NCBI GenBank assembly: GCA_020852815.1
Contig: JADZAN010000032.1
Span: 1 to 64,000 of the forward strand
Reading direction: 5' to 3'
Origin: Gemmatimonadaceae bacterium
GTDB lineage: Bacteria; Gemmatimonadota; Gemmatimonadetes; Gemmatimonadales; Gemmatimonadaceae
DNA: 64,000 nt
A model generated the notes under the pieces. That model ran no database searches, was not told where the DNA came from, and saw only the letters and a list, made by a program, of their open reading frames with translations. A program made the position numbers and the translations under genes. This document shows, one piece after another, positions 404-15,971 of the stretch; within the stretch, counting starts at the first letter, position 1, and the number at the start of each line of letters is the position of its first letter.

Positions 404-1330
404 CTAGAGGAGGGCGCGGAGGTGGGTGACGCAGGCGGCGCCGAGTCGGTCGGGGGCGTAGCCGCCCTCGAGCGCGCTGACGAGGCGGCCTCCGCACCAT
501 GCGGCGGCGCGCTCTACGAGCTGGCGGGTGAGCGCGTCGACATGCTCGTGCTCGAGGGTGAAGCCGCCCAGGGGATCGCCGTTGAGGGAGTCGAAGCCGG
601 CGGAGACGAGGATGAGGTCGGGGATCCAGGAGGTCGTCGCGGCGTCGACGGCGCGCGTGAGGGCGTCGACGTAGCGCTGGGCGGGGAGACCGGGGGGCAT
701 GGGGACGTTCCAGACGGAACCGTGCGGGCCGCGGTCCTCGGCGGGGCCGGTGCCGGGGTACCAGGGCCACTGGTGCATGGAGACGAAATGGATGTCAGGC
801 TCCTGCTCCACCAGGGCCTGCGTCCCGTTGCCATGGTGCACGTCCCAGTCGATGATGAGGACGCGCCGTGCGCCATGCCGCATCCGTGCGTAGTGCGCAG
901 CAATGGCGACGTTGCCGAAGAGGCAGAAGCCCATGGCGCGAGCGCGCAGCGCGTGATGTCCCGGCGGGCGCACGGCGGCGAAGCTGCGCAGCACGCGCCC
1001 CTCGAACGCCAGGTCGACGCCATCGAGCACGGCGCCGCATGCGGCGCGCGCAGCGTCGCACGATCCCTCGCTGGCCACGGTGTCGGCGTCGAGGTGCCCG
1101 CCGCCGCCAGTTGCAACCGCTGCGGCATGCGCGATGTAGGCCGAGTCGTGCACGATGGCCAGTTCCTCCACCGTGGCGTGCCGCGCCTCGAGATGCTCGA
1201 GCGCCTGATAGAGGTCGAAGTCGTTGCGCAGCGCGCGCGGGATGGCACGCAGGCGGCCGACGTGCTCGGGGTGACTCCACCCGGTATCGTGTCGGCCGCA
1301 GTCGGCATGGCTGATGTAGGCGACGGTCAT
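404..1330 (-). CDS. Histone deacetylase-family (acetylpolyamine/AcuC-like) amidohydrolase
   Basis: Zn-dependent deacetylase of the arginase/deacetylase fold, 308 residues, about the usual size. Family hallmarks are all present: GHH at 124-126, the zinc-site DWDVHHGNGT at 161-170, SAGFD with Asp247 and the terminal EGGY at 288-291. Bacterial members deacetylate acetylated lysines or polyamines; the substrate cannot be read from sequence. The start at 1330 was chosen over an in-frame ATG at 1360 because it makes an ATGA overlap with the stop of the upstream gene, as elsewhere in this operon. No signal peptide, so cytoplasmic. It is the last gene of a MoxR/BatA-type operon. Confidence 0.85.
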   Translation of the reverse strand: MTVAYISHADCGRHDTGWSHPEHVGRLRAIPRALRNDFDLYQALEHLEARHATVEELAIVHDSAYIAHAAAVATGGGGHLDADTVASEGSCDAARAACGAVLDGVDLAFEGRVLRSFAAVRPPGHHALRARAMGFCLFGNVAIAAHYARMRHGARRVLIIDWDVHHGNGTQALVEQEPDIHFVSMHQWPWYPGTGPAEDRGPHGSVWNVPMPPGLPAQRYVDALTRAVDAATTSWIPDLILVSAGFDSLNGDPLGGFTLEHEHVDALTRQLVERAAAWCGGRLVSALEGGYAPDRLGAACVTHLRALL

Positions 1331-2841
1331 CGGGCTCCGCGCAGTCGGCGTGACGACCACTCAACGAGGAGTGCGGTGAGGAAGATGGCGAAGAGGAGTG
1401 CATCCCAGGGCGTGGTTCCCTGCGCGCCGTGCGTCGCCGACGCGCCGGCGCCTGGGCGCCCGAGCGCGGAGACGAGGGCGGCGTAGGGCGCCTCGTCGAC
1501 GACGGGCGCCTCCGCCAGCTGCACGAGGGGCGCGTAGGCGACGGACGAGACGAGCGATGACCACCACGCGCGGTGCGCCGCGGGGGCCTCGTCGTCGCCG
1601 GCCATGCGCCAACGCCAGGTGTCGTCATAGCCGACGAGGATGGCGCGACCGGCCTCGACGCGCGCGGCAACGACGCGCGCCTCGCGACCGGTGCGGTCGA
1701 GGACGACGGCGTCGCGCTCGATGGCGGAGAGCGCCACGCCATCCAGGGCGCGCCGCGGCGCATCCGATGCCAGGGCGCCGAGGCGCGGCGTCACGAGCGC
1801 ACCCAGACGAGCGGGGAGGAGTGCGGCGATGGCGGGGATGGACGCCGCGCCCCGCGCCACGATGACGCCGCCGCCGCTGCGGACAAAGCGGGCGATCGCC
1901 GGTGCATAGGGCGCGGCGGTCCTGTCGAGCGCGATGACGGCGGCGTAGTGCGCCGTGTCGATGACGAAGGCACTCCCCTGCCTAACGTCTACGTTGGGAG
2001 CGACGCGGAAGCGCGCATCGACGCCCCACCCCGCCTCCTCCAGGGCGGCGGCGACGAACTTCCCTTCCCAACTCGCGTTGGCGACGACGAGCACCGGGCG
2101 CAGCAGGAGCGAGTCACGGGCGGCGCTCGACGCCTCGCCGACCTCGCCTTGCGCACGCACCACGCCGTCGAGCATGGCGTCGATGGTGCGCACGCCTCCG
2201 ACGGCAACGCGCGCGGAGTCGAGCGTCCCCGCTTCGTCGCGCACGCGGAGCACGACGTCAGGCGCCGCCAGCGCCACGACGCGCGCGCGGCCGCGCGGGT
2301 CGGCCACGGGCTCGACGAGCGCGGCGATAGCGCCGGCGGCGGCATGGGTGGCTTGGGCCGCGTCGGTGGCGGCCGCAGCGACGGTAGCGTCGCTGGCAGA
2401 TGCGACGCCAGCGCCCGTCGCAGTAGTTGCAGTTGCAGCTGCCGCCGTCCTCCGCCACGTAACGCGTGCACCAGCGTCCGCCAAGGCACGGGCCCACTCG
2501 CGCTCGCGCCGCCCCGGGATCGAGTCGAGCGTGAGCTCGAGCGCGGCCGGCCCGTCATCGGTCGCGCGTGCAAGCGCCTCGGGGAGCGCGCGGGTGCTCG
2601 CCACCACGAGGGCGCCGCGCCGATCTCGCGCGCCGTCATCGAGTGGACGCCACGCCCGCCACACCAGCACACCTAACGCCACCAGCGCCGCCCCCCGCGC
2701 CACACGCTCCCGCCGGGACGCGCGCACCATCCGCGGCGCGTCCACCACCCGCGGCGCGTCCACCACTCGCGGTGCGCGCTCCATGCGCGGCGAACGCCCG
2801 CGCCCCGCCATCGGCGACTCGTCGTCAGCGGGTGAGCGCAT
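1327..2841 (-). CDS. Membrane protein with glutamine-amidotransferase-like domain, BatA-operon type
   Basis: 504 residues. A short basic N-terminus contains a repeated APRVVD unit, then one membrane segment (about residues 48-64), a long periplasmic-type region with an Ala/Thr-rich low-complexity stretch (about 135-170), and a second membrane segment close to the C-terminus (WDALLFAIFLTALLVEW). Such two-anchor proteins with a class-I-GATase-like fold are common beside BatA and DUF58 genes; no catalytic triad is evident. The start at 2841 overlaps the upstream gene by 17 bases; a later ATG at 2811 is an alternative. The stop overlaps the deacetylase start (ATGA). Exact function unknown. Confidence 0.65.
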   Translation of the reverse strand: MRSPADDESPMAGRGRSPRMERAPRVVDAPRVVDAPRMVRASRRERVARGAALVALGVLVWRAWRPLDDGARDRRGALVVASTRALPEALARATDDGPAALELTLDSIPGRREREWARALADAGARVTWRRTAAAATATTATGAGVASASDATVAAAATDAAQATHAAAGAIAALVEPVADPRGRARVVALAAPDVVLRVRDEAGTLDSARVAVGGVRTIDAMLDGVVRAQGEVGEASSAARDSLLLRPVLVVANASWEGKFVAAALEEAGWGVDARFRVAPNVDVRQGSAFVIDTAHYAAVIALDRTAAPYAPAIARFVRSGGGVIVARGAASIPAIAALLPARLGALVTPRLGALASDAPRRALDGVALSAIERDAVVLDRTGREARVVAARVEAGRAILVGYDDTWRWRMAGDDEAPAAHRAWWSSLVSSVAYAPLVQLAEAPVVDEAPYAALVSALGRPGAGASATHGAQGTTPWDALLFAIFLTALLVEWSSRRLRGAR

Positions 2842-3448
2842 AGACCACCAGATTCACGGCAAAGCGCGTGTTGTCCACCGAGAAGAAGCGCTTGTTGTCG
2901 GGATGATAGTTCCACTCCGACGAGTAGTCCTTGTTGCTGTAGAGGACGGCGATACGGCCGCCGCGCAGTGCCGCCATGAGGTACGGATGCACGAGGTTGT
3001 CGCCCCACCCGTTCAGCTCGTGCGAGGTGTTGGGCGGGCCGTCCTCGAAGCGGAAGAAGGCGGAGTAGAGCGGATGCGTATTGGGGAGCTTGGCCAGCTT
3101 CCCCGCCGCCGCCTGCAACGCCTCCGTGGCGGTCTTGTGGAACATGCCGTCGACGTCGTGGTTGTGATCGTCGACGAAGAGGAGCCCGCCGCGCTCGAGA
3201 TAGCGCTCGAGCATGCGCCGCTCCTGCGACGTGAAGCGGACGGGAAGGTGCCCCGTCAGGTACAACAACGGATACTGCAGCACCGCCTCCGAGCCGAGCG
3301 GGACGACGGCGCCCGACGGGGCCACGTCGATCTCGGTGTAGCGGGCGATCGAGTCGATGATGTTGGCCGGGACGAGCGGCGCCGAGTCCCAGTCGCCGGA
3401 CTCGTACTGCGCGGTGGCGAAGGTGAAGGCGGGGGTGCGGGCGCTCAT
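2825..3448 (-). CDS. DUF4159-type protein
   Basis: 207-residue soluble protein starting MSARTPAFTF. Features typical of DUF4159 are a central GGLLFVDDHNHDVDG stretch, predicted Rossmann-like strands and a C-terminal HPDNKRFFSVDNTRFAVNLVVYALTR-like block (NKRFFSV and NTRFAVNL). DUF4159 proteins sit in BatA/MoxR clusters and resemble the GATase-like flavodoxin fold; their role is not established. The start at 3448 was chosen because it makes an ATGA overlap with the preceding gene; the longer upstream frame is arginine-rich antisense-type sequence and unlikely to be translated. Confidence 0.75.
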   Translation of the reverse strand: MSARTPAFTFATAQYESGDWDSAPLVPANIIDSIARYTEIDVAPSGAVVPLGSEAVLQYPLLYLTGHLPVRFTSQERRMLERYLERGGLLFVDDHNHDVDGMFHKTATEALQAAAGKLAKLPNTHPLYSAFFRFEDGPPNTSHELNGWGDNLVHPYLMAALRGGRIAVLYSNKDYSSEWNYHPDNKRFFSVDNTRFAVNLVVYALTR

Positions 3449-5535
3449 CGCACGCCTCCCCAGGGTGGGATCGAATCGCCGGTGACCATGGCGTCGTCGA
3501 GCGCACGGCGTGCGCGGAGGAGCGAGGCGGTCGCGTCGCGGGCGCTGCGCAACTCGGCGATGGCGGCTTCGAGCGCCGAGGCGGCGGCCGGGCGCGCGTC
3601 GGCCACCGCCAGGCGCAAGATGATGAGAGAGTCGACCGCCGCGGCGCCGTCGTTCGGCAGGAGGGCGAGGGCGCGGGCGAAGCGTTGCAGCTGCGGCCGC
3701 CGGCTTCCCGCCGACGCCGCCCGTGGCGTGCGCGGCGACGGGTCGCCGGTCCCCTTCCCCGCCAGGCGCACGCGCGCCAGGTCGACCACCACGCGCGGCG
3801 GCGCACCGCGGAGGTAGAGCCGCTCGGCGGCGCGGGCGCGCTGGATGGCGGCGAGCGCGGCATACATCGGCTTGATGGCGCGCCGCGGCTCGCCGCCGTC
3901 GAGGGCGCGCCCGGCGTCCCACATGGCGTTGTAGGCCTCGAGCATTGGGCGGTTGATGGCCAGCACCGGCGTCTCGTCGTGCTCGAAGTCGATCGCGTTT
4001 CCCGCTCCCTGCGTGGCGCGCTCGGCGGCCTGGAGGAGCTGCTCGGGGGTGAGCGGGGCACTGCCTAACTGTTCGGTGTCGGCGTGACCGTGGCCGTCGC
4101 CATGGAAGTGCTCGCCGTCGGGCTCGCCCCCCAGCCGGGCAAAGATGATGTCGCTCACCTGCCGCCTGAGCCGCGCCTGGTCGCGCCCGATCCGGCGCGA
4201 CTCGGCGACCAGGTCGGGGCGCGGGAGTCGCGGGGCGCGCTTGAGCAACGCCTCGGTGAGCATGATGAGCATGCGCTGCGAGATGACCGACTTGTCGGCA
4301 TCGGGGGGCGGGGCCTGCTCGACGGCCACCGAGTCGTACTCGCCGAGTCGCGCCACGCGAATCGTGCGCGACTCGGAGGTCCCCACGCCCGGCCCGGAGA
4401 CGCTGTTGCGATCGACGGCGACCGCCCGCACGTGCACCACGTCGCCGGGTGCGAGGGCGAGCGACTCCAGGGAGAGCGATGAACGCAGCGGCGCATCGCG
4501 TCCAACGCCGAGCGGTAGCGTGCCTAACGTCCCCGACTTGAAGGTGAAGCGTTCACCTTCACCGGAACTCACGATGTACTCGAAGCGCGCGCTGGCGAGC
4601 GCCAGGTCGTCGTGCAGGTCGGCGGCGAGCGCGATCGAACCGGTGCTGACGCGGAGGACAGTATCGCGCGCGGGGAGGCGCAGGGTGACCGTCGGCGCGG
4701 AGTCGATCAGCGGTTCGAGGGCGATGAGTCGTGCGTCGCCGCCGGTGCGCTCGATGCGGAGGAGCGATCGTGCGCTGTCGCTGCGGAACTCGGCGCTCCA
4801 CCGATCGTCATTGCCCGACGTCGCGATCGAGCGAGCATCGCGCGTGACGCGCGTGGACGAAGCCGCGCCGCGCCCCTGCACGGTGACGACGCTCCCGGGA
4901 TAGGCGCGCACCATGGCCGGCGACTCAAGGCGCACGGCGGGGAGGGCGGTGTAACCGGGGGGGCGTATGGTGACAAGGACCGCGCCTAACGGGGCGGCGT
5001 GCGACGATGCGGCACCGGCGCCAAGACCGGTGCGCCGATCGACGCCGGTATGCGCAGGCGACGCTGGGGTGAGGGCGAAGGCGACGGCGCCGACGGCGGC
5101 GATGATGATCGGCCAGAGCAGCGCGCGTCGCACGGCGCGCCACGCCGGCGCTTCCCAGTCGGCGGCGCGCACCGCGCGTTCGAGGTAGCCGGCCGACAAT
5201 GGCGGTGGTGCCTCGTCGACGGTGGTGACGAGGGCGTAGCGCAGCGCCGGTGTGTGTTCCTCGAGCCAGAGTGCGGTGCGCTGCGCCGACAGGCGCACGA
5301 CGGCCGACCGCATCCAGCTCCAGGCCGCGGTGCCCACGGCGGCCACGAGGGCCCAGGCGGCGACGCCGGATGGCGATCCCCCAACGATGCGCAGCGCTGC
5401 CGCCACCAGGAGCCCCGCGCCACTGGCGAGGAGCGCGGCGCGCAGCGATGCGGCGAGCAGGAGAAGACGCCTCCATTGCGAAACACGTCCGCGCGCCGCC
5501 GTCAGGGTGACGTCCTCGCCAGGAAACGCCGTCAT
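3445..5535 (-). CDS. Large membrane-anchored protein with coiled-coil C-terminus (DUF4175-like)
   Basis: 696 residues from MTAFPGEDVT. Two to three membrane segments lie near residues 30-80 and about 150-170, followed by a long periplasmic-type beta-rich region (about 200-440) and a helical C-terminal third rich in Arg, Ala and Glu. A histidine-rich DGEHFHGDGHGHADTEQ stretch sits at about residue 515. Layout and context fit the DUF4175-like proteins found in BatA clusters; I cannot identify an enzymatic motif. Start 5535 gives an ATGA overlap with the upstream gene, and its stop overlaps the DUF4159 start in the same way, implying coupled translation. Confidence 0.65.
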   Translation of the reverse strand: MTAFPGEDVTLTAARGRVSQWRRLLLLAASLRAALLASGAGLLVAAALRIVGGSPSGVAAWALVAAVGTAAWSWMRSAVVRLSAQRTALWLEEHTPALRYALVTTVDEAPPPLSAGYLERAVRAADWEAPAWRAVRRALLWPIIIAAVGAVAFALTPASPAHTGVDRRTGLGAGAASSHAAPLGAVLVTIRPPGYTALPAVRLESPAMVRAYPGSVVTVQGRGAASSTRVTRDARSIATSGNDDRWSAEFRSDSARSLLRIERTGGDARLIALEPLIDSAPTVTLRLPARDTVLRVSTGSIALAADLHDDLALASARFEYIVSSGEGERFTFKSGTLGTLPLGVGRDAPLRSSLSLESLALAPGDVVHVRAVAVDRNSVSGPGVGTSESRTIRVARLGEYDSVAVEQAPPPDADKSVISQRMLIMLTEALLKRAPRLPRPDLVAESRRIGRDQARLRRQVSDIIFARLGGEPDGEHFHGDGHGHADTEQLGSAPLTPEQLLQAAERATQGAGNAIDFEHDETPVLAINRPMLEAYNAMWDAGRALDGGEPRRAIKPMYAALAAIQRARAAERLYLRGAPPRVVVDLARVRLAGKGTGDPSPRTPRAASAGSRRPQLQRFARALALLPNDGAAAVDSLIILRLAVADARPAAASALEAAIAELRSARDATASLLRARRALDDAMVTGDSIPPWGGVR

Positions 5536-6917
5536 GCCGCCTCCGAGGTGGCGGTGGCGCTGCGCGGTTCGGCATCGGCGTCCGGGGCGCGTCGGCGTCG
5601 CATCCACCACTCGGCCGCCAGCAGCAAAGCGACGACCGCGAGCAGCCACCGCTGCGCCTCGCGCCCCTGTTCGGCCTCGGCGACTAGCGTGCGTCGGGCG
5701 GTGCGCGAGTCGGCTGGTTCACGCGCAGGATGCATGGCCCAGTTAGCGAGCCGAGCGCTGTCGACCACGGTCATGGCGCCACCGCCGCACGGCGCCGCGA
5801 GCTCGCGGAGGGCCGCGCGGAGCGACGTGGAGAGCGCGGCGTCACCTGACGTCGAGAGGGCGACCCCTATCGTACGAATGCATCCCGCGCCGAGCGTCGA
5901 CTCGAGGGCGGCGGGCGCGCCATCGCCCCAGCGCGCGATGACGCTGGCGATCGGTGGCGCATTGCCCCGGGACGAACCCTCATCCGGGACAGCGCCGCCG
6001 ACTGCGATTGCGGCGAAGCGGGCGATGGTCGTGCGGTCGCCTAACGTGAGAGCACGTGGCGTGAAGGCCGACGCGGGGAGGGTGAGTCGCGGCCAATGGA
6101 TGACGATACCTCCCTGGCGCGCGGCAGCGGAGTCGGCGGCGGTGATGGCGTCGCGCACGATGCGCGTGCGGCGCGAGGCGACGCCGGCACTCGGAATGGC
6201 GAGGGCGAGCGCGGCGTCGACAGGATCGCGCAGCGACTCGGGGGCGCCCGCGGCGCCCGAGATGCCGACGTCATCGCTCATGCGCGCTGTCGCCATGGAA
6301 TCGGTGACGGCGGCGACGCGCATGGTGCGGACGGGACCGTCCCATCGCGCCCGCACCGCGTCCATCGACGCGTCCCAGCTCTCGGTGGCGAAGGGAGAGA
6401 TGACGACCAGTTCGACGCGCTCGTGCGTTGGCGCGAGGCGTCTTGCTTCGCGAATGGCGACGATGAGGCCGGCGCCGAGTGACCCGCGGACCATCGCGAC
6501 ATCACCGAGGACGGTGTCGGGGAGGACGCGCGCGGTGGAGTCGACGCGGACGCGGACTACGGTGGCGGCGCCGGCAGCGGCGGTGCGCGCGCTGTCGGTC
6601 ACCTCGCGCGCGCTGGCCACGCGGCGTGCGGCGTCGAGGACGAGGACGCGGGCCACGCCGCGCCGTGCGGGGTGCCACGACGGACGGGCCAGGGCGAGCC
6701 CCGCCAGGAGCAATGCGGCGACGCGCAGGAAGAGGAGGACCACGTCGCGCAGTTGCACGGTGCGCGAGAGGGCGCGCGTGGACGCGGCGGGGGCAAAGCG
6801 CGCCGTGGGAAGCAGGCGCGGCGCGGGGCGCCGCCAGGCCAGCAGGTGCAACGCGACGACGACGCCGGCGGCAAGGGCGGCGCCAAGGAGGAAGAGGGGG
6901 GCGGCGAGTATCGGCAC
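5532..6917 (-). CDS. BatA-type (aerotolerance) membrane protein
   Basis: 461 residues. The N-terminus has the BatA N-terminal domain layout: a first membrane segment (residues 5-25), the LHLLAWRRPAPRLLPTARF motif just after it, and a second segment at about 60-78 followed by ALARP. A von Willebrand-like or GATase-like soluble region follows and a last membrane segment (LLAVVALLLAAEWWMRRR) lies near the C-terminus. BatA proteins work with MoxR ATPases, DUF58 proteins and other Bat proteins in envelope-stress or complex-assembly roles. It starts 3 bases after the DUF58 gene and overlaps the next gene by 4. Confidence 0.75.
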   Translation of the reverse strand: MPILAAPLFLLGAALAAGVVVALHLLAWRRPAPRLLPTARFAPAASTRALSRTVQLRDVVLLFLRVAALLLAGLALARPSWHPARRGVARVLVLDAARRVASAREVTDSARTAAAGAATVVRVRVDSTARVLPDTVLGDVAMVRGSLGAGLIVAIREARRLAPTHERVELVVISPFATESWDASMDAVRARWDGPVRTMRVAAVTDSMATARMSDDVGISGAAGAPESLRDPVDAALALAIPSAGVASRRTRIVRDAITAADSAAARQGGIVIHWPRLTLPASAFTPRALTLGDRTTIARFAAIAVGGAVPDEGSSRGNAPPIASVIARWGDGAPAALESTLGAGCIRTIGVALSTSGDAALSTSLRAALRELAAPCGGGAMTVVDSARLANWAMHPAREPADSRTARRTLVAEAEQGREAQRWLLAVVALLLAAEWWMRRRRAPDADAEPRSATATSEAA

Positions 6918-6920
6918 CGC

Positions 6921-7889
6921 TCAGCGATCGCCGAGGCGGGACTCGAGCGGCGGAAGCGGCGCGCCGCCGCGCCTAACGTCTCCCCCGTGTCCGCCATCGC
7001 CCAGCGCATCCCCTTCGCCCGAGCGCCTCCCCGCCCCCGTCGCCACCCCCCGCACGACGAGCGCCGCATCATCCTCCGCCTGCACCTGCCGGTAGCTCGC
7101 CCCCGCCAGTCGCCAGGCGCGCGCGGTGGCCGAACGCCACTCGGCGAAGCGGGCGCGGTAGGCGGCGCGCCCTGCCGCGTCCAGCGGGCGCTCGATGGTG
7201 TCGTCTTCCGGATCGACCGCCAGGGCGAGCGCCGGGGGCGGCTCGAGTTCGTCGCGCGACACCACGTGCACCACGTGCACATCACCGCCGGCGTGGGCGC
7301 GCGCGGCGGCGGCCCCGCGCAGAGCCTCCTCATCGCCCAGCAAGTCGCTCACGACCACGAGCCGGGCGCGCACGGGGACGGCGAGGAGCGCCGGCGCCAG
7401 GGCGTGCGCGCCGGCCGGCGTGGCACTGCCTAACGCGGAGACCAGCTCGACGAGGACGTCGGCGCGGGTGCGGGCGCGCACGTGCACGAGGCCGCGCGCG
7501 GCGGCGATGACGGCGCCGACCGGATCGCCCGAACGCTGGGCAACGGCGGCGATCCCCACGGCGAGCGCGCGCGCCATCCACCACTTGGCGTGCGACGCCT
7601 CGGGAAAGGCCATCGACGCCGAGGCGTCGATGACGAACCAGGTGGGGTGCACCGCGCGGTCGTCCGAAAGGCGCGTAAAGGCGCGATCGCTGCGGGCGAG
7701 GAGCTTCCAGTCGAGCTGGCGCGGATCGTCACCCTGGCGATAGAGGCGGTACTCGCTGAGTTCGGGGGCGCGCCCGCGCAGGCGGGAGAGATGTGCGCCG
7801 GTGTGCGTCCCGCTCACGCGGCGTCGCGCCGGCCAGGTGAGCCCGCGCACGGCATCGAGGATGGGGCCGTACTCGCGCGGGATCGACAT
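6921..7889 (-). CDS. DUF58 / von Willebrand A-like protein
   Basis: 322 residues, cytoplasmic. The DUF58 signature is clear: an N-terminal YRLYRQGDDPRQLDWKLLAR-type stretch (DDPRQLDWK at about 58-66) and a MIDAS-like DASASM (about residues 89-94) in the vWA fold. DUF58 genes nearly always follow a MoxR ATPase gene, as here, and the pair is thought to act as chaperone and client adaptor. The 151-base gap to moxR carries a G-run/C-run tract. The downstream BatA-like gene begins only a few bases after the stop. Confidence 0.85.
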   Translation of the reverse strand: MSIPREYGPILDAVRGLTWPARRRVSGTHTGAHLSRLRGRAPELSEYRLYRQGDDPRQLDWKLLARSDRAFTRLSDDRAVHPTWFVIDASASMAFPEASHAKWWMARALAVGIAAVAQRSGDPVGAVIAAARGLVHVRARTRADVLVELVSALGSATPAGAHALAPALLAVPVRARLVVVSDLLGDEEALRGAAAARAHAGGDVHVVHVVSRDELEPPPALALAVDPEDDTIERPLDAAGRAAYRARFAEWRSATARAWRLAGASYRQVQAEDDAALVVRGVATGAGRRSGEGDALGDGGHGGDVRRGGAPLPPLESRLGDR

Positions 7890-7939
7890 GGGCGATCAGC
7901 GGGGGTTGACGCGAGCGGCGACTCTGGGGTGGGCGACGC

Positions 7940-7992
7940 GGCGGACGCGGGGGGCCCCCCCCAACAACAACATCCACCCGCCCCCCCACATC
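7940..7992. repeat. G-run/C-run tract in the moxR-DUF58 gap
   Basis: About 6 G followed directly by 8 C, then AACAACAACATCCACCCG and a second C run. On the minus (transcribed) strand this is a G-run-rich leader 50-100 bases before the DUF58 start, able in principle to form a hairpin or G-quadruplex. A similar element lies at 52106-52144. Confidence 0.5.
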
Positions 7993-8040
7993 TCCCTCAC
8001 CATTTCCTTCCGCATCGTACCCGTTCCACCGCAGCCGACG

Positions 8041-9156
<1,116 letters not shown>

Positions 9157-9174
9157 CCGTGCCTAACGTGTGGC

Positions 9175-9234
9175 CACCTGCGACGCGACGCAGGTGCGGT
9201 CATCGCACCGCAGCGGCGGCAATCGTACCGCCGC
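9175..9234. terminator. Two hairpins between the ubiquitin-like gene and moxR
   Basis: CACCTGCG (9175-9182) pairs with CGCAGGTG (9189-9196), and GCGGCGG (9213-9219) pairs with CCGCCGC (9228-9234). They lie directly after the stop of the small gene at 9240. They may stop its transcript and separate it from the moxR operon, though no U-run is present. Confidence 0.4.
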
Positions 9235-9239
9235 GGCAG

Positions 9240-9584
9240 CTACCGCACCGGGCGACGCCGACGGCTCGTGATGAGGAAAATAGATCCATCCGTGCCCCCC
9301 GCCTCGCTGATCGACGCGCCCTCGTTGAGCACCTCGATCCCCGCGAGCTTCACCACATACCCGGCCACGTTCGCGGCATCGTCGGGCACGAGCGCCTGCA
9401 GCGCACGCGCCTTCACCACCGACACCGGGGTGTCGGCCGGCGCGTCGATGCGAACCGTATCCCACACCTCGGCCACCGTCACCCGCACCGTGATGACCGG
9501 CTCGTTTCCCGTGCCCAGCCGGATCACCCCGGGACGGGAGCGGAGCTGCGCCGTGAACGGAACCGATGTCGACGCGGCGCTCAT
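9240..9584 (-). CDS. Small predicted beta-grasp (ubiquitin-like) protein
   Basis: 114 residues, not matched to a named family from memory. The order of segments reads like ubiquitin: two N-terminal strands (VITVRVTVAEVW, VRIDAPADTP), a helix (VSVVKARALQALV), strands GYVVKLAG and EVLNEG, then a SISEAGGTDGS turn and a last strand IFLI. It ends in SRRRRPVR, with no C-terminal diglycine. YukD/EsaB-type ubiquitin-like proteins have this shape. The start overlaps the stop of the preceding 95-residue gene (ATGA), so the two are probably made together. Function unknown. Confidence 0.6.
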   Translation of the reverse strand: MSAASTSVPFTAQLRSRPGVIRLGTGNEPVITVRVTVAEVWDTVRIDAPADTPVSVVKARALQALVPDDAANVAGYVVKLAGIEVLNEGASISEAGGTDGSIFLITSRRRRPVR

Positions 9585-9868
9585 GTCGTGGCCTCCACGG
9601 CGCGCGGGAGCGTGGCCAGGAATCGCGACACCTGCGCGTCGAACATGTACGAGGCAGCCGTCACCAGCGTTGCCCCGTCGCGCTCGACGACGCCAAACAC
9701 GATCTCCTCGCCCCCCTGCCCGCGAAGCGAGACGTGTGCGGCGCTCTCCTGCTCCGGAAACGCGGCGTAGATGTTGATGCGTCGGGCGAAGAACTCCTTC
9801 GCCGCGGCCAGCACGTCGGCAGGGGCCAGCGTCGTGCGCAGCTCCTGCATGGTCCGTCGTTGCGTCAT
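9581..9868 (-). CDS. Conserved-looking small protein, partner of the ubiquitin-like gene
   Basis: 95 residues, no recognised family. The sequence predicts a helix (PADVLAAAKEFFA), a strand-rich middle (AAHVSLRG, EEIVFGVV, ATLVTAASYM) and a C-terminal helix (DAQVSRFLATLP). No signal peptide or membrane segment. It lies 7 bases downstream of a histidine kinase gene and overlaps the ubiquitin-like gene by 4 bases. It therefore belongs to a three-gene unit and may assist signalling, which is inference from position only. Confidence 0.6.
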   Translation of the reverse strand: MTQRRTMQELRTTLAPADVLAAAKEFFARRINIYAAFPEQESAAHVSLRGQGGEEIVFGVVERDGATLVTAASYMFDAQVSRFLATLPRAVEATT

Positions 9869-9875
9869 GCCCGAA

Positions 9876-11258
9876 TCACGTGATCGTTAGGTTACCCCGC
9901 GCATCGAGCGCGGGCTCGAACTCCAGCGGCAGCGCGAGCGTGAACGCCGTCCCGCTCCCCGGCGCCGATCGCAGCTCAACATCGCCACCCAGGAGTCGCG
10001 CCAATCTCCGAGCCAGCGCCAACCCCAGCCCCGACCCCCCGTAACGGCGTGTCACCGAGCCATCCACCTGGCGAAACGCCTCGAAAACCGTCCCCTGCGC
10101 CTCCACCGGGATCCCGATCCCCGTATCGGCAACCGTGAAGTGGACCCGGTCTCCCACCAGCGTCACCCCCACGTCGACTCGCCCGCGCGGGGTGAACTTG
10201 TACGCGTTCCCCAGCAAGCTAGCGAGGATGCGGGAGATTTTCTTCCGGTCGGATTTCATCCGCGGCATGAACGGCGGCACCTCGGCCACGTGCAGCTCCA
10301 CCTCGCTCGAGCGCCCCTGCGCCGACGCCACCACGTCGTGCAACACCGCCGCGGGGTCAAACTCCTCGATATAGAGCGAGATGTCGCCGCGCGTGAGCGT
10401 CGTCAGCTCGAGCAGGTCCTCGATGAGTTCCAGCAAGCGCTCGCTCGACCGCTTCACGTGCGCCAGGTCCTGCCGCTGTCCGTCGGTGAGGGGGCCGGAA
10501 AGCTCCTCCTGCAGGATCGAGATGTAGCCGAGCACCGAGGTGAGCGGCGTGCGCAGCTCGTGCGAGATGTTGGCCAGGAACTCGTCCTTCGCCTTCCGCG
10601 CCTCGACGACCGCCGCGTACTGCTCCTCCAACTCGGCGTTGGCCTCGGTGAGGGCGGCGTTGGTGCGACGCAGCTGCTCGATGAGCGACGCCTTCTCGGC
10701 GGTGGCCGACATCTGGTCGGCGACGAGACGCATCATCCCGCGCGACTCGGGGCCACGCTTCCCCGATTCGGCGAAGTAGAAGGTCACCGCCCCCAGTACG
10801 CGGCTCGACGTCTGCAGCGGAAGTGCGACGAGCGACTTGAAGCCAAGCTCCGCCGCCACTTCTCCCCAGTCCTCCAGGTCGGCGTCTGTGAAGACGTCGG
10901 GGACCTCGATCACGCGCCGCTCGGCGACCGCCTCGCCGCTGGGGCCAAAGCCCAGGCGCACCCGCATCTCCCCCAGCCACGGCTTGTAGCGCTCCGGCCA
11001 GTTGTACGCGGCGATGAGGTGCATCAGCTCCGAGACGCCGTCTACCAGGTAGACCGAGGCGAAGGTCGCGCCGACCAGCGGCGAGACGCGGTCCAGGGCG
11101 AACTGGAAGACCTCCTCGGGACGGTCGGCGTTGAGGAAGGCGTGCACGATTTCGCGCACCGCCATCAACTCACGCAGCGACTCGGGCGTGGTCGAGGTGG
11201 GGAGGACGGGCTTGGACGATCGCAGCCCCTCGGGGGCCTTGCGGAAAGCCTTGGGCAC
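9876..11258 (-). CDS. GAF-domain sensor histidine kinase
   Basis: 460 residues, soluble. An N-terminal GAF domain (about 35-190) is followed by a coiled coil (about 190-228), a HisKA dimerisation domain with ISHELRTP (phospho-accepting His233) and a HATPase_c domain: LLGNAYKFTPRG (N box), ADTGIGIP (G1) and YGGSGLGLALARRLA (G2). It should phosphorylate itself in response to a ligand bound by GAF. No response regulator gene is adjacent; the two genes downstream are small and unassigned. The C-terminus ends with a 15-residue acidic tail. Confidence 0.88.
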   Translation of the reverse strand: MPKAFRKAPEGLRSSKPVLPTSTTPESLRELMAVREIVHAFLNADRPEEVFQFALDRVSPLVGATFASVYLVDGVSELMHLIAAYNWPERYKPWLGEMRVRLGFGPSGEAVAERRVIEVPDVFTDADLEDWGEVAAELGFKSLVALPLQTSSRVLGAVTFYFAESGKRGPESRGMMRLVADQMSATAEKASLIEQLRRTNAALTEANAELEEQYAAVVEARKAKDEFLANISHELRTPLTSVLGYISILQEELSGPLTDGQRQDLAHVKRSSERLLELIEDLLELTTLTRGDISLYIEEFDPAAVLHDVVASAQGRSSEVELHVAEVPPFMPRMKSDRKKISRILASLLGNAYKFTPRGRVDVGVTLVGDRVHFTVADTGIGIPVEAQGTVFEAFRQVDGSVTRRYGGSGLGLALARRLARLLGGDVELRSAPGSGTAFTLALPLEFEPALDARGNLTIT

Positions 11259-11396: not shown

Positions 11397-12800
11397 CTAG
11401 AACGTCGCGGTGAGCGCCGAGAAGAGCCACGAATACGCTCGTGCGCTCCCGGACTCCTTCATGAAGGCACCGGGGGCGAAGCGCGCAAAGCCGCCGTCCA
11501 TGCGCATGTGCCGACCCAACCGCCACTGCAGCGTGACGTCGAGTTCCGTTCCCACGGCGCGCGAAGTCCCGGCGTTGCCGGCGCGGAACACGCCACCCGT
11601 CGCGTCGTACGCCGCGTCGGCGGTGGAGGCGCGCTGGAAGGAGTGCAGCCCGGTCCTGAAGCGACCTGCGGGGAGCGGGGAGAACTGCACGACGAAACGC
11701 TCTTCCACGAGGTTGCGGCGCCCCAGCACGTCGGCGTAGCCGGCGTATGCATGGGCCAGGGGATACAACTGATCCCACGTCCCGCTCTGCGCGCGTTCGC
11801 CCGCGGCGGTCCCGCTCGCCCGATCAAAGCCCAGCGCGAACGACGGAGTCCAGCGACGCTTGGGCGACCAGGTGAGGTCGCTGGCGAGCATGGTGGCGTA
11901 GGATGTGTTGCCGCTGGTGCTCACCTGCTGCGCGCCGCCTTCGACCTCGAGCAGGAGGTCGGGACGGGCAAGTGGCGTGACGACGCGCGCCGTTGCCGCC
12001 GAACGCTTCGTGGACGGCGTCGTCCCCACCGCGTCCAGCGACTTGACGAGGATGGCGCCTTCGACGATGCGGCCGCCGCGCGGCGCCTGCCAGGCGGCGG
12101 TGGTTCCCCAGAGTTGGGCCACATCATCGGCGATGTCGCGGCGAAGCGGGCGCAACGTGAGCGGGTGCGCCGCGAAGGCGCCGAGCGCGAGCGAGCCGCG
12201 CCGCGCCTCCACCGCCGCGCCCTCGAAGACGCGGCGCACGTTGGCCCAGTCGAGCGGCGAGATGATGCGCTCGCGCCCCAGCAGCAACTCCTGCCGTCCC
12301 ACGCGTGCGGCGGCCTTCACGCCGTTCATGGTTCCACCCAGCTCTACAAATGCGTTGCCGAGGTCGCCGCGATCGCGATCGATCGCACGCGCGCCGCCGG
12401 GCAACTCCCGGCCGGAGACATCGGCAAAGCGCCCCTCGACAAAGGCGCGCACGTGCGTCCCCAGGTGGAGGTCGGCGTGCAGGTGCGCGCGGACCGCGGT
12501 GAACGCATCGGTGCGCGTGCCGGCGCCGCCACCAAGGAAGTTCTGGACCGATTCGCCGCGCACGCGCACGTGTCCACCGAAGGAGAGCCATGCCGCCCCT
12601 CCCTCACCTAACGCGATGTGCTTGAGCGGATCGAGCGGATCGCCGGAGGGAGCCTTGGACCAGTCTTCGCGAAAGCGGAGGTTCTCGAAGGCGGGGCGCG
12701 GTGCGGGGGCAGCCGCCTGGGCACCGGCATGTGCAGCGGGACGGAGCGCACCGGCCACGATGCACAGCGTCGGCAGGAGCAATCTGGCACGGGCTTGCAT
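11397..12800 (-). CDS. Alginate-export-type outer-membrane porin of the nirK cluster
   Basis: 467 residues from MQARARLLLP, with a signal peptide cleaved near AHAGAQA (about residue 29). The remainder is strand-rich with alternating aromatic residues, has WLSFGGHVRVRGESVQNF early and RVGRQELLLGRERIISPLDW in the middle (a motif typical of alginate_exp barrels), and ends in Phe, as usual for outer-membrane proteins. The start at 12800 was chosen for the signal peptide. It follows nirK-nirV-SCO1 in the same orientation with a 64-base gap. Its role in nitrite or copper uptake is inference. Confidence 0.7.
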   Translation of the reverse strand: MQARARLLLPTLCIVAGALRPAAHAGAQAAAPAPRPAFENLRFREDWSKAPSGDPLDPLKHIALGEGGAAWLSFGGHVRVRGESVQNFLGGGAGTRTDAFTAVRAHLHADLHLGTHVRAFVEGRFADVSGRELPGGARAIDRDRGDLGNAFVELGGTMNGVKAAARVGRQELLLGRERIISPLDWANVRRVFEGAAVEARRGSLALGAFAAHPLTLRPLRRDIADDVAQLWGTTAAWQAPRGGRIVEGAILVKSLDAVGTTPSTKRSAATARVVTPLARPDLLLEVEGGAQQVSTSGNTSYATMLASDLTWSPKRRWTPSFALGFDRASGTAAGERAQSGTWDQLYPLAHAYAGYADVLGRRNLVEERFVVQFSPLPAGRFRTGLHSFQRASTADAAYDATGGVFRAGNAGTSRAVGTELDVTLQWRLGRHMRMDGGFARFAPGAFMKESGSARAYSWLFSALTATF

Positions 12801-12864
12801 GAACGATGATGGGATGGATGTCGAGGCGCCGCGCGGGAGGCGCGCGGTGCCGGAGGTGGTTGCC

Positions 12865-13518
12865 CTAACGCGCGGGTGCCGCGGCGCGCGCGGCGGCGAC
12901 GACGGCCTTGCCAAGTGCCTCGCGGTCGCCCGGAACGCGCGGCGACTGGAAGCGCATCACGCCGTCGGCGTCGAGCACGCTGATGATGTTGGAGTGGTCG
13001 AAGTCACCGCTCGGCAGTTGCCGGTAGCTCACGCCGAGCAGCACCGCCAACTGGCGCACGTCGGATGGTGCGCCGCGCACGACGAGCCACCGGTCGTCGA
13101 GCGCCATCTTGCTCGCATGCCGGTGGAGCGCACCAACCGAGTCACGCGCCGGATCGAACGAGGCGAGGACGAAGCGCACCTTGGGCCTGACGTCGGCGGG
13201 GAGCGCATTCTGCACCAGCTGCATCTCGCGCGTGATGAGCGGACAGGTCATCGTGCACGAGGTGTACACCATGGCGACGACGACCGTCTCACCCCGCAGG
13301 TCGGCGAGCGCGATGGCACGTCCGTCGTGGTTGGTCCACCGCCCGGAGAGACGATAGAGGGAGAGTTCGGGGAGCGCGCCGGCCGCGGTACGTCCTTGCG
13401 CCTGTGCCTGCGGCGCGACGAAGGGGAGGAGGCACAACAGCGCGCTGCAGCACGTGAGCGCGCGGCACGTGAGCGCGAGCGCGCGCCGTGCGCGGGGCGT
13501 CCCAACGCCGGTGATCAT
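12865..13518 (-). CDS. SCO1/SenC-type copper chaperone
   Basis: 217 residues with an N-terminal signal or anchor segment (about 12-40, ending QAQAQG). The thioredoxin-like SCO fold keeps both copper-binding cysteines (YTSCTMTC, Cys88 and Cys92) and the distal histidine in DFDHSNII (His175). SCO proteins deliver copper to periplasmic copper enzymes. In this cluster the natural client is NirK, although cytochrome oxidase is also possible. The start overlaps the stop of nirV (ATGA). Confidence 0.85.
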   Translation of the reverse strand: MITGVGTPRARRALALTCRALTCCSALLCLLPFVAPQAQAQGRTAAGALPELSLYRLSGRWTNHDGRAIALADLRGETVVVAMVYTSCTMTCPLITREMQLVQNALPADVRPKVRFVLASFDPARDSVGALHRHASKMALDDRWLVVRGAPSDVRQLAVLLGVSYRQLPSGDFDHSNIISVLDADGVMRFQSPRVPGDREALGKAVVAAARAAAPAR

Positions 13519-14342
13519 TGTCGTCCTCGTGCAGGAGAAGGCGCCGCATCGCGCGCGACGCGGAAGCCGAGCGTTGCCAATGCATAGGTGCCGCGCAGCG
13601 AACCGCGCACTGCGTAGCGCATGAAGGCCGCGTAGTTGCCGGGATCGGCGGTGAGCGCGGCCCCGCCGGCGCAGAACAAGCCGTCGTCAGGCGTTCCGTC
13701 GCCGCGCGACTCTCCACTGGTGACGACGGCGTTGAAGTCGTCGACCCATTCCCAGGGACCGCCGTGCAATCCCACCACGCCGTCATCGCTCACCAGGCGG
13801 GCGGTGGGGTTGGCGGCGCCTGACGACTGCGCACCGTAGGTCGACAGCAGGTGCGCCTGCAGGCGCTCGGGCGAGGGGCCGAGCGCGCGCTGGAAGCGGC
13901 TCGCGGCCAGTTCCCACTCCGCCGAAGTGGGGAGGCGTGCCCCCCGCCACTCGGCGTAGGCATGTGCGGCAAACCAGGAGACGTTCACCACGCTCGCCGT
14001 GGCATCGACGCCCGGTCCCGGCACCGTATCGTTTGCCCAGTGCCGCAAGTAGGCGGCGTCGGCGGCGATGCGCGGCACGCGCGAGCGCCGCCACTCGGGC
14101 CGGGCGATGACAAACTGCAGAAAATCCGCATTGCTCACGGGGCGCTCGGCGAGCAGGAAGGGCGCAACCGCGAGCCCCGTGTCGGCAACCCCCGCCAGGT
14201 AGAAGGGGCGCACATGTCCGCCCGCCACCGCACGATAGCGGAGGGCGGGCGCACGCTGTGCGGCGGCGCCCGAGGCGCCACCGCACAGCAGGACCAGCAT
14301 CATCCCGCACACTCGCGCCTTACGCGTCGAGATGGGGAGCAT
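13515..14342 (-). CDS. nirV: NirV-like SUMF1/formylglycine-generating-fold protein
   Basis: 275 residues with a signal peptide (MMLVLLCGGASGAAAQ). The formylglycine-generating-enzyme-type fold shows in FLLAERPVSNADFLQFV, VVNVSWFAAHAYAEWRGARLPTSAEWE, GGPWEWVDDF and the closing YALATLGFRVARD. NirV proteins of this fold are encoded directly beside nirK in several denitrifiers; their biochemical role is unsettled. The two active-site cysteines of true formylglycine generators are not evident, which argues against sulfatase activation. It lies 14 bases after nirK and overlaps SCO1 by 4. Confidence 0.7.
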   Translation of the reverse strand: MLPISTRKARVCGMMLVLLCGGASGAAAQRAPALRYRAVAGGHVRPFYLAGVADTGLAVAPFLLAERPVSNADFLQFVIARPEWRRSRVPRIAADAAYLRHWANDTVPGPGVDATASVVNVSWFAAHAYAEWRGARLPTSAEWELAASRFQRALGPSPERLQAHLLSTYGAQSSGAANPTARLVSDDGVVGLHGGPWEWVDDFNAVVTSGESRGDGTPDDGLFCAGGAALTADPGNYAAFMRYAVRGSLRGTYALATLGFRVARDAAPSPARGRQ

Positions 14343-14356
14343 GAGCGTGTGCTACC

Positions 14357-15901
14357 TCAGGGCTTGGGTCGTGCGGCGCGCACGCGCTGCACGTCCTTCA
14401 ACGTCACCAGGTCGGTGGCGTGGTTGCCGAAGTTGGTGCGCACGTACGACAGCACGGCGGCAATGTCGGTGTTGGTGAGCGCGAGGCTCGGCATCACACC
14501 GTTGAACTTCTGCCCGTTGACCGTGACTTCACCCGACAAGCCACGCATCACGACGCCGATGGCGCGGTCCTTGTCCGCCATGAGGAAGTCGCTCCCCTTG
14601 AGCGGCGGGAAGGCCCCGGGGACGCCCTCTCCACCTAACTGGTGGCAGGCGACGCAGTTGCCGGCAAACACCTGCTGGCCACGGGCGAGCAGCTCGGCGC
14701 GCGGCAGTTCGCGTTCCGGCGCGGCGCTGGCCTCGGCCGGCATCGTCTGCACCGCCCCGCCTTCGGGGAGATACACGACGTCGCTCTGCTTGCCGGAGTA
14801 GATGACCTTCTGTTCGTCGCCCTCGACCTTGAGCATCCCCAGCGCCCCCTTGTTGAAGGCGCGGAAGATCGAGTGATCGACGAGAATGAACGTCCCCGGC
14901 ACTTCGAGCTTGAAGTCGACCATCGCCGAACCGCCCGCCGGGACGAGGGTCGTCTGGACGTCATGCTGGTTGGCGATCGATCCACCTTCGGTGTAGACCT
15001 TGTCGAAGATTTCGCCGATCACGTGGAAGCTCGACACCAGGTTGGGGCCGCCGTTGCCGACGTACATGCGCACCTTCTCGCCCACCTTGGCCTTGAGTGC
15101 GTTGTCGCCGGCCACCGCGCCCACCGAGCCGTTGAAGACGACGTACTCCGGATCTTCGTGGAGCGCCTTCTCCATGTCGAACGGCTGGACGCCCGCCTCG
15201 CCATGGCGCCCCGCGGTGTAGAACTCGCTCTGCACGATGTAGAACTCGCGATCGACCGGAGGGAGCCCCTCGGGCGGTTCGACGAGGATGAGGCCGTACA
15301 TGCCGTTGGCGATGTGCATGCCGACCGGCGCGGTTGCGCAATGGTAGATGTAGAGGCCCGGATTGAGCGCGGCGAACGAGAACTGCGAGCTATGCCCCGG
15401 CGCCGTGAACGACGACGCCGCGCCACCACCGGGCCCAGTCACGGCATGCAGGTCGATGTTGTGCGGCATCTTGCTCGTCGGGTGGTTGTTGAGGTGGAAC
15501 TCCACCTCGTCACCCGAGCGCACCCGCAGCATGGGACCCGGCACCGATCCGCCAAAGGTCCAGAACGTGTACTCGACGCCGTCGGCGAGGCGCTTGCGCA
15601 CTTCGCGCGTCTCGAGATTGATGATGATCTTCGCGGGAGTCTTGCGGGTGATCGCCTTGGGGACCGCAGGGGCATGGGCGACCTGGAGCGTCTCGACCGG
15701 GAGCGCGCCGCTCGGCCGATTCGCGAGCGGATCCCTCGCCGACGCCGAGTCCTGCTGGGAACAACCCTGGAGCGATAGTGCGACGCATACAGCTGCAACT
15801 AGCACACGAAACGGCGCCTTGCTCGAAGCGGAGACGGCGATGGTCGAGTGATCCACGGTGCGTACCGTTGGGCAGTGGGGGATGCGGCGCGTCGGCATCA
15901 T
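14357..15901 (-). CDS. nirK: Copper nitrite reductase with C-terminal cytochrome c domain
   Basis: Reduces nitrite to NO in the periplasm. Numbered from the ATG at 15901 (514 residues): lipobox LQGC with Cys47; two cupredoxin domains with all copper ligands, namely His147, His152 and Asp150 in PHNIDLHA, His187-Cys188, His196 and Met201 in [16 protein letters not shown], and His293 in [12 protein letters not shown] fused cytochrome c domain has CVACH (416-420) and a likely axial Met470. The fused heme domain suggests direct electron delivery. The upstream ATG at 15967 would place the operator-like palindromes inside the gene, so 15901 (or GTG near 15856) is preferred. Confidence 0.92.
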
Positions 15902-15942
15902 GCAAGGGCGCGCCGCAGGGGGATTCGGGCGGCGAGAAACAT

Positions 15943-15954
15943 CATATGCATATG
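15943..15954. promoter_or_regulatory. Palindrome CATATGCATATG upstream of nirK
   Basis: Perfect 12-base palindrome in an A/T-rich pocket 42-53 bases before the preferred nirK start. Its ATGCAT centre resembles the core of NsrR-type sites, but a full NsrR consensus is not present. It is a candidate operator or promoter element. Confidence 0.4.
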
Positions 15955-15971
15955 TCGAATTGCGCATGGCA

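Follow-up and report, generated by a model that had tools for sequence, protein, structure and literature searches.

What do two small overlapping genes behind a sensor kinase encode in a member of the Gemmatimonadaceae, and do their products act together? The roles known for bacterial ubiquitin-like proteins are mainly those of sulfur carrier, secretion accessory and component of defence operons. An earlier note on the 64,000-nt stretch of DNA analysed here (the window) had placed such a protein next to a small unassigned gene. It described the pair as overlapping and as lying behind a GAF histidine kinase, and both statements proved correct. The 95-residue gene, here called P2, occupies positions 9581–9868 on the minus strand (9868 to 9581 in reading direction); the 114-residue gene, here called UBL, follows on the same strand at 9240–9584 (9584 to 9240). 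The two share a 4-base ATGA stop/start overlap at 9581–9584, through which their translation is likely coupled. Directly upstream of P2 is the kinase (9876–11258, minus strand, read from 11258 to 9876), with GAF, HisKA and HATPase domains. Continuing along the minus strand from kinase, P2 and UBL, the next gene encodes a MoxR AAA+ ATPase (8041–9156), the first of a block that extends from UBL towards a histone-deacetylase-domain gene and also holds genes for a DUF58 protein (6921–7889) and a BatA-N protein (5532–6917). The deacetylase gene itself lies further on (404–1360, minus strand; Pfam Hist_deacetyl, 7.7e-82).

P2 and UBL are real genes, with matches in most of 60 genomes and signs of purifying selection. 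Compared with one same-genus relative (G002), codon-position identities were 0.86/0.85/0.56 for UBL and 0.82/0.89/0.64 for P2, and NG86 dN/dS was about 0.24 and 0.23, respectively, as expected under purifying selection.

We examined the fold of UBL with structure prediction and profile searches. The best of five AlphaFold2 models (14 sequences; pLDDT 80, pTM 0.73; the other four at pLDDT 65–72) has strands at residues 15–22, 30–37 and 42–49, a helix at 54–65 and strands at 76–80 and 101–107. Together with Foldseek, VIA and profile matches to solved structures, the model indicates the beta-beta-alpha-beta-beta topology of the ubiquitin beta-grasp, so the fold call made earlier from the letters alone stands. 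The element order quoted for that call agrees with the modelled strands and helix, except that SISEAGGTDGS forms a loop, not a strand. Foldseek returned 8tyx_A (the Ubl BilA) first, at E 3.1e-5. VIA superimposed the model on BilA over 82 residues (Z 11.0, rmsd 2.6), with ISG15, SUMO and ubiquitin tied and 8tyz also matched. At the sequence level, a profile of 45 UBLs reached ubiquitin D/FAT10 (2.4e-5) and ISG15 (3.1e-4) among solved structures and, weakly, BilA (0.009). In Pfam, the sole match of the window's UBL was YukD (PF08817; E 5e-5, 24.4 bits, below the curated cut-off of 27), a family matched by 28 of the 45 members at E up to 0.1 (best 3.5e-7); DUF2604 was matched by 25 of 45 at the same threshold. 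The profile comparison with YukD/EsaB and ThiS that had been suggested thus yields a sub-threshold YukD match; at E up to 0.1 the 45 UBLs matched 13 families, and ThiS (PF02597) is none of them. On this evidence UBL is predicted to have the ubiquitin fold. Residues R34, K58, K79, G82 and R110 are invariant in the 45 aligned UBLs of the window's order; in our own alignment to ubiquitin, K58 presumably falls at ubiquitin K27 and K79 at I44.

The most distinctive part of UBL is its C-terminus. After the last strand, nearly all UBLs of the order continue into R-x-R-R-P-V-R or a close variant, and among 51 distinct sequences a loose pattern places an RR-type tail at the very C-terminus in 50 and a strict pattern in 44. 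The model has low confidence at the tail end, as expected of a flexible terminus. The window's UBL had been reported to lack a C-terminal GG, and indeed it ends in RRRRPVR instead. The same is true across the order, where none of the 51 distinct sequences ends in GG and the last residue is R, K, Q, E, S or V, never Gly; ordinary E1 activation is therefore not expected.

Searches of Pfam, NCBIfam and PADLOC matched nothing to the window's P2, and Pfam gave only single, chance-level matches for its 44 aligned relatives, with no SRPBCC family at E up to 1. The AlphaFold2 model (15 sequences; pLDDT 83, pTM 0.75) shows a strand, a helix, four strands and a second helix. Foldseek aligned it to Aha1, SRPBCC-type proteins and KA1 domains (best E 3e-3), and VIA to a KA1 domain (Z 10.1, rmsd 3.2) and to the polyketide-cyclase-like Rv2186c (Z 9.2, rmsd 5.0). 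Because no Foldseek match reached E 0.001 or better, we keep the assignment at the level of the fold class: P2 is predicted to be a small helix-grip domain, without finer classification. Nine residues (A23, R49, G50, G52, E54, E55, V69, F83 and L87) are invariant in the 44 sequences, and they include the motif R49-G50-x-G52-x-E54-E55.

The pairing of the two genes is strongly conserved. UBL was found in 56 and P2 in 57 of 60 genomes, the window's own included, with one strong match each. In all 56 genomes with both, the genes are adjacent and on the same strand with P2 first, at alignment gaps of −25 to 305 bp, and a counterpart of the pair recurs in families f4 and f10, at 14 of 14 distant loci (f and g numbers are family and genus labels of the sampled genomes). 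The conserved partnership with the 95-residue gene, which had been named as a point on which the earlier reading depended, therefore holds. A contig scan for close relatives of P2 gave 17 loci, 16 of them titled Gemmatimonadetes, -ales or -aceae and one 'unidentified bacterium'. The UBL profile matched 182 of 298 genomes from the phylum, all in f1–f4 and f10, and a broad P2 profile matched 278. For the 172 sampled genomes of the order, two lists were read together by hand, with P2 counted at E < 1e-15: both genes are present in 156, UBL only in 1 (G187), P2 only in 8 and neither in 7 (Fisher p 6e-8, which is only a guide, as the genomes are related and some absences are probably assembly gaps). 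Taken together, this gene pattern suggests two proteins that are made together and bind each other.

The eight P2-only genomes are all eight sampled members of genus g13 (P2 in 8/8, UBL in 0/8), namely G014, G154, G197, G201, G225, G246, G261 and G269. In G014, P2 abuts the deacetylase gene at a distance of 16 bp. Loss of UBL with retention of P2 beside the deacetylase suggests that P2 has a tie of its own to this neighbourhood.

Neighbouring genes differ in how widely they accompany the pair. The kinase is a local, family-level neighbour. By hand reading, at least 25 of 36 genomes of the same family have a kinase match just upstream of P2, three of these matches being partial (G001, G024 and G025), but no member of the kinase cluster occurs in 8 loci from the order's other two families, so that the position behind a GAF kinase is a feature of the window and its family and does not extend to those loci. 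In G025 (G025:C2:163341-163898, L066), the match to the kinase covers just residues 22–207, the GAF part; the homologue that lies upstream of P2 there has perhaps lost its catalytic half. Upstream of the window's kinase, positions 11397–15967 encode an alginate-export-type porin and an SCO1/SenC protein (Pfam), followed, as judged by eye, by a formylglycine-type protein and a copper nitrite reductase with a cytochrome c tail. In the other two families, P2 is preceded at no more than about 4 kb by a glycyl-tRNA-synthetase-type gene in all 8 loci, and directly so in 2. Pfam identifies one representative as a class II synthetase; its glycyl specificity is our own reading, as are the labels M3 peptidase (cluster c13), MoaA, inositol-phosphate synthase and AcuC-like used for other genes. 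Cluster c13 had no Pfam match at 1e-5.

The deacetylase gene is a far more constant companion. Every genome that carries UBL and the deacetylase on one contig (49 of 49) has the two collinear, within 335 bp in 35 cases and at 7.0–7.9 kb in 14; in 4 further genomes the two are split over contigs. Of the 14 wide-gap genomes, 8 were read across the interval, the window included, and in these it carries MoxR and DUF58 clusters. Positions 1361–9239 of the window are thus an insertion/loss polymorphism between UBL and the deacetylase.

We then considered homologues outside the order. From 25 UBL-positive genomes of f4 and f10 we took 14 loci (L112–L125), in which UBL homologues match the profile at E 3e-8 to 3e-13. 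Directly upstream of each is a divergent P2 relative, matched by the order's P2 profile at E 1e-8 to 0.0036, values that are weak and come from a small search. These UBL homologues end in R-x-[YF]-D-x-x-H-x3-[FY]-x-G in 14 of 14 loci, a tail as conserved as that of the order, and one of them ends in GG. A ThiF-rhodanese E1-like cluster occurs in 7 of the 14 neighbourhoods, not directly beside UBL (Pfam, one representative); with their glycine ends and this cluster nearby, the f4/f10 homologues are candidates for terminal-glycine activation. The deacetylase, GlyRS and PriA were absent among the genes found in these loci, and since the deacetylase cluster was not seen beside the f4/f10 pair, it is no core part of any module that the two genes form. 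K79, invariant in the order's 45 UBLs, is E in 12 aligned f4/f10 rows. A complementary charge swap between P2 and UBL of the two clades was considered and dropped, as computed net charges do not support it.

P2 relatives also occur beside a second kind of ubiquitin-fold gene. Another P2 subfamily, in f4, f8 and f10, precedes MoaD in 18 of 19 loci fetched (gap −7 to 121 bp), which were taken from 30 such genomes. The 19 loci are L078–L094, L096 and L097. Among 20 loci fetched for this subfamily, a MoaE cluster is present in 13 and a MoaA-type cluster in 15; Pfam confirmed ThiS and MoaE for one locus, and MoaA was assigned by reading. We know of no molybdopterin role for a P2-type protein. In a P2 tree (75 relatives, 92 columns, with 25 of 72 inner branches open), the order's P2 falls with the MoaD-linked group (100/99); the P2 that accompanies UBL in f4/f10 joins paralogue c, a second P2 of the order (100/100). 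UBL therefore has partners from both halves of the P2 family, and MoaD is a third association, so that P2 relatives stand beside a ubiquitin-fold gene in three separate settings: with the order's UBL, with the f4/f10 UBL and with MoaD. Paralogue c (10 loci, f1/f2) and a further group d (5 loci, f5/f7) have no ubiquitin-fold neighbour by the UBL and MoaD profiles. The generalisation that P2 always precedes a ubiquitin-fold gene was rejected once the broader P2 profile had found groups c and d.

Based on these results, we favour the reading, at a probability of about 0.5, that P2 and UBL form a dedicated two-protein module, in which a ubiquitin-fold adaptor that is not conjugated works with a binding partner and the deacetylase is the most likely client. 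From the genes, their predicted folds, the tail, the pairing and the gene order we infer a P2-UBL contact, an adaptor role for UBL and the deacetylase as client. A non-covalent adaptor is proposed because the order's UBL has no conjugation glycine and carries an end-specific basic tail. UBL would act without being conjugated, and its exposed arginine tail, conserved at the very end, would be the docking element. P2, the helix-grip domain encoded just before it, would bind the ubiquitin fold and stabilise or present it, and the histone-deacetylase-like enzyme encoded downstream would most likely be the client in the window's order. Counting against such a module are groups c and d, which lack a ubiquitin-fold neighbour, genus g13, which has P2 without UBL, and the lack of charge complementarity. 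More tentatively, helix-grip proteins may have been recruited at least three times in the phylum as partners of ubiquitin folds (in the two UBL settings and with MoaD) and so represent a new kind of ubiquitin-fold-binding domain, the order's version of which would, together with a non-conjugated ubiquitin bearing an arginine tail, act on a protein deacetylase.

The simplest competing explanation is that two small housekeeping genes are held together by conserved operon order and have no functional contact. Much of the neighbourhood is indeed conserved within the order (among 20 loci and the window, GlyRS clusters occur in 16, the deacetylase in 18 and PriA in 11), and P2 persists without UBL in g13. 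Yet the pair is intact in f4/f10 amid different neighbours, its P2 there belonging to another subfamily, and P2 beside MoaD is a further instance of the pattern, so that we consider mere co-residence rather unlikely. UBL could also be a protein modifier, conjugated after processing of the tail or, in f4/f10, through its terminal glycine. Its structural matches BilA, ISG15, SUMO and ubiquitin, all tied, are conjugated proteins, and the f4/f10 homologues have both the glycine end and, in half of the loci, the ThiF-rhodanese cluster described above. The E1-like gene of f4 is, however, separated from UBL by other genes, some of them on the other strand; the order of the window lacks the C-terminal Gly; and a Pfam scan of 8 window proteins (5.5–13.5 kb) showed no E1, E2 or JAB domain. 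The resemblance to BilA of bacterial Bil systems is that of a first structural match tied with other Ubls and a weak profile match, and UBL differs from BilA in having no terminal Gly and no PADLOC match. We regard conjugation as improbable. A sulfur carrier of the ThiS/MoaD kind would share the ubiquitin fold, and one P2 subfamily does precede MoaD, but UBL has no GG, ThiS-family matches lie at places other than UBL in 58 of 60 relatives, and the UBL loci read have no molybdopterin genes beside UBL; this role is hardly credible. Both the sulfur-carrier and the conjugation readings were lowered because of the C-terminus and the neighbours.

Two further comparisons involve known pairs and families. 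YukD/EsaB is the nearest Pfam family, shares the ubiquitin fold and, like UBL, is not known to end in GG. UBL could accordingly be read as a type VII secretion accessory. The YukD matches are the evidence for this, although the window's score lies under the curated cut-off, UBL has an added C-terminal tail and a P2 partner, and no secretion ATPase was identified among the neighbours. Iyer et al. (2006, PMC1779556) associate YukD with the export of ESAT-6, and RnfH with SmpB, SmpA and a gene for a START domain. WXG100 was found in 0 of 60 relatives, in a search that did pick up 2 of 14 controls, including B. subtilis. Unless a secretion locus exists without recognisable WXG100 proteins, the type VII reading is refuted in this setting, and we give it next to no weight. 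The closest layout is that of RatA-RatB/RnfH (PasT-PasI) in Proteobacteria, where, according to PMC1779556, a START-domain gene is associated with a small ubiquitin-like gene; the E. coli K-12 record likewise has ratA and then yfjF, overlapping. By this parallel in order and overlap, P2 would be a toxin and UBL its antidote, as proposed for PasTI/RatAB. P2 alone is kept in 8 of 8 g13 genomes, however, and hence tolerated without UBL, and the pair sits at a conserved place in nearly all relatives, unlike a mobile pair. Moreover, a 2025 paper makes the case that RatA only seemed toxic because its start had been mis-annotated, and refers to studies of its homologue as a Coq10-like lipid chaperone (PMC11988751). 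A toxin-antitoxin function is thus very unlikely. The proteins differ as well: P2 has about 95 residues against 158, and UBL carries an arginine tail. The RnfH family (PF03658) was found in 0 of 60 relatives, with the E. coli control matching, and is not among the families of the 45 UBLs; profile comparisons of P2 with E. coli RatA and of UBL with YfjF were null, each a weak test with a single sequence on one side. The likeness of P2-UBL to ratA-yfjF is at most an analogy, and we do not count the pair as a member of that system. UBL is neither a type VII YukD nor a MoaD/ThiS protein, and there is no sign of a Bil system.

Our searches of the open-access literature found no prior description of the P2-UBL pair, which suggests that it is an undescribed ubiquitin-like two-protein module present across several bacterial families. 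That nearly every sampled genome of an environmental order has a UBL whose conserved tail is not GG, and whose co-inherited partner is missing from the searched libraries, points to a core function beyond the known roles. Because P2 turns up beside both UBL and MoaD, two small proteins would allow a direct test of whether a helix-grip domain can bind a ubiquitin fold, and the pair may cast light on the long-standing ratA-rnfH pairing.

The second P2 copy, paralogue c, is present in all ten f1/f2 genomes examined. In the window's own genome this divergent paralogue, P2c, lies at 7435–7746 of locus L152 (G000:C19:56000-71000), and its neighbours are genes that we take to encode an inositol-1-phosphate synthase and a CDP-alcohol phosphatidyltransferase.
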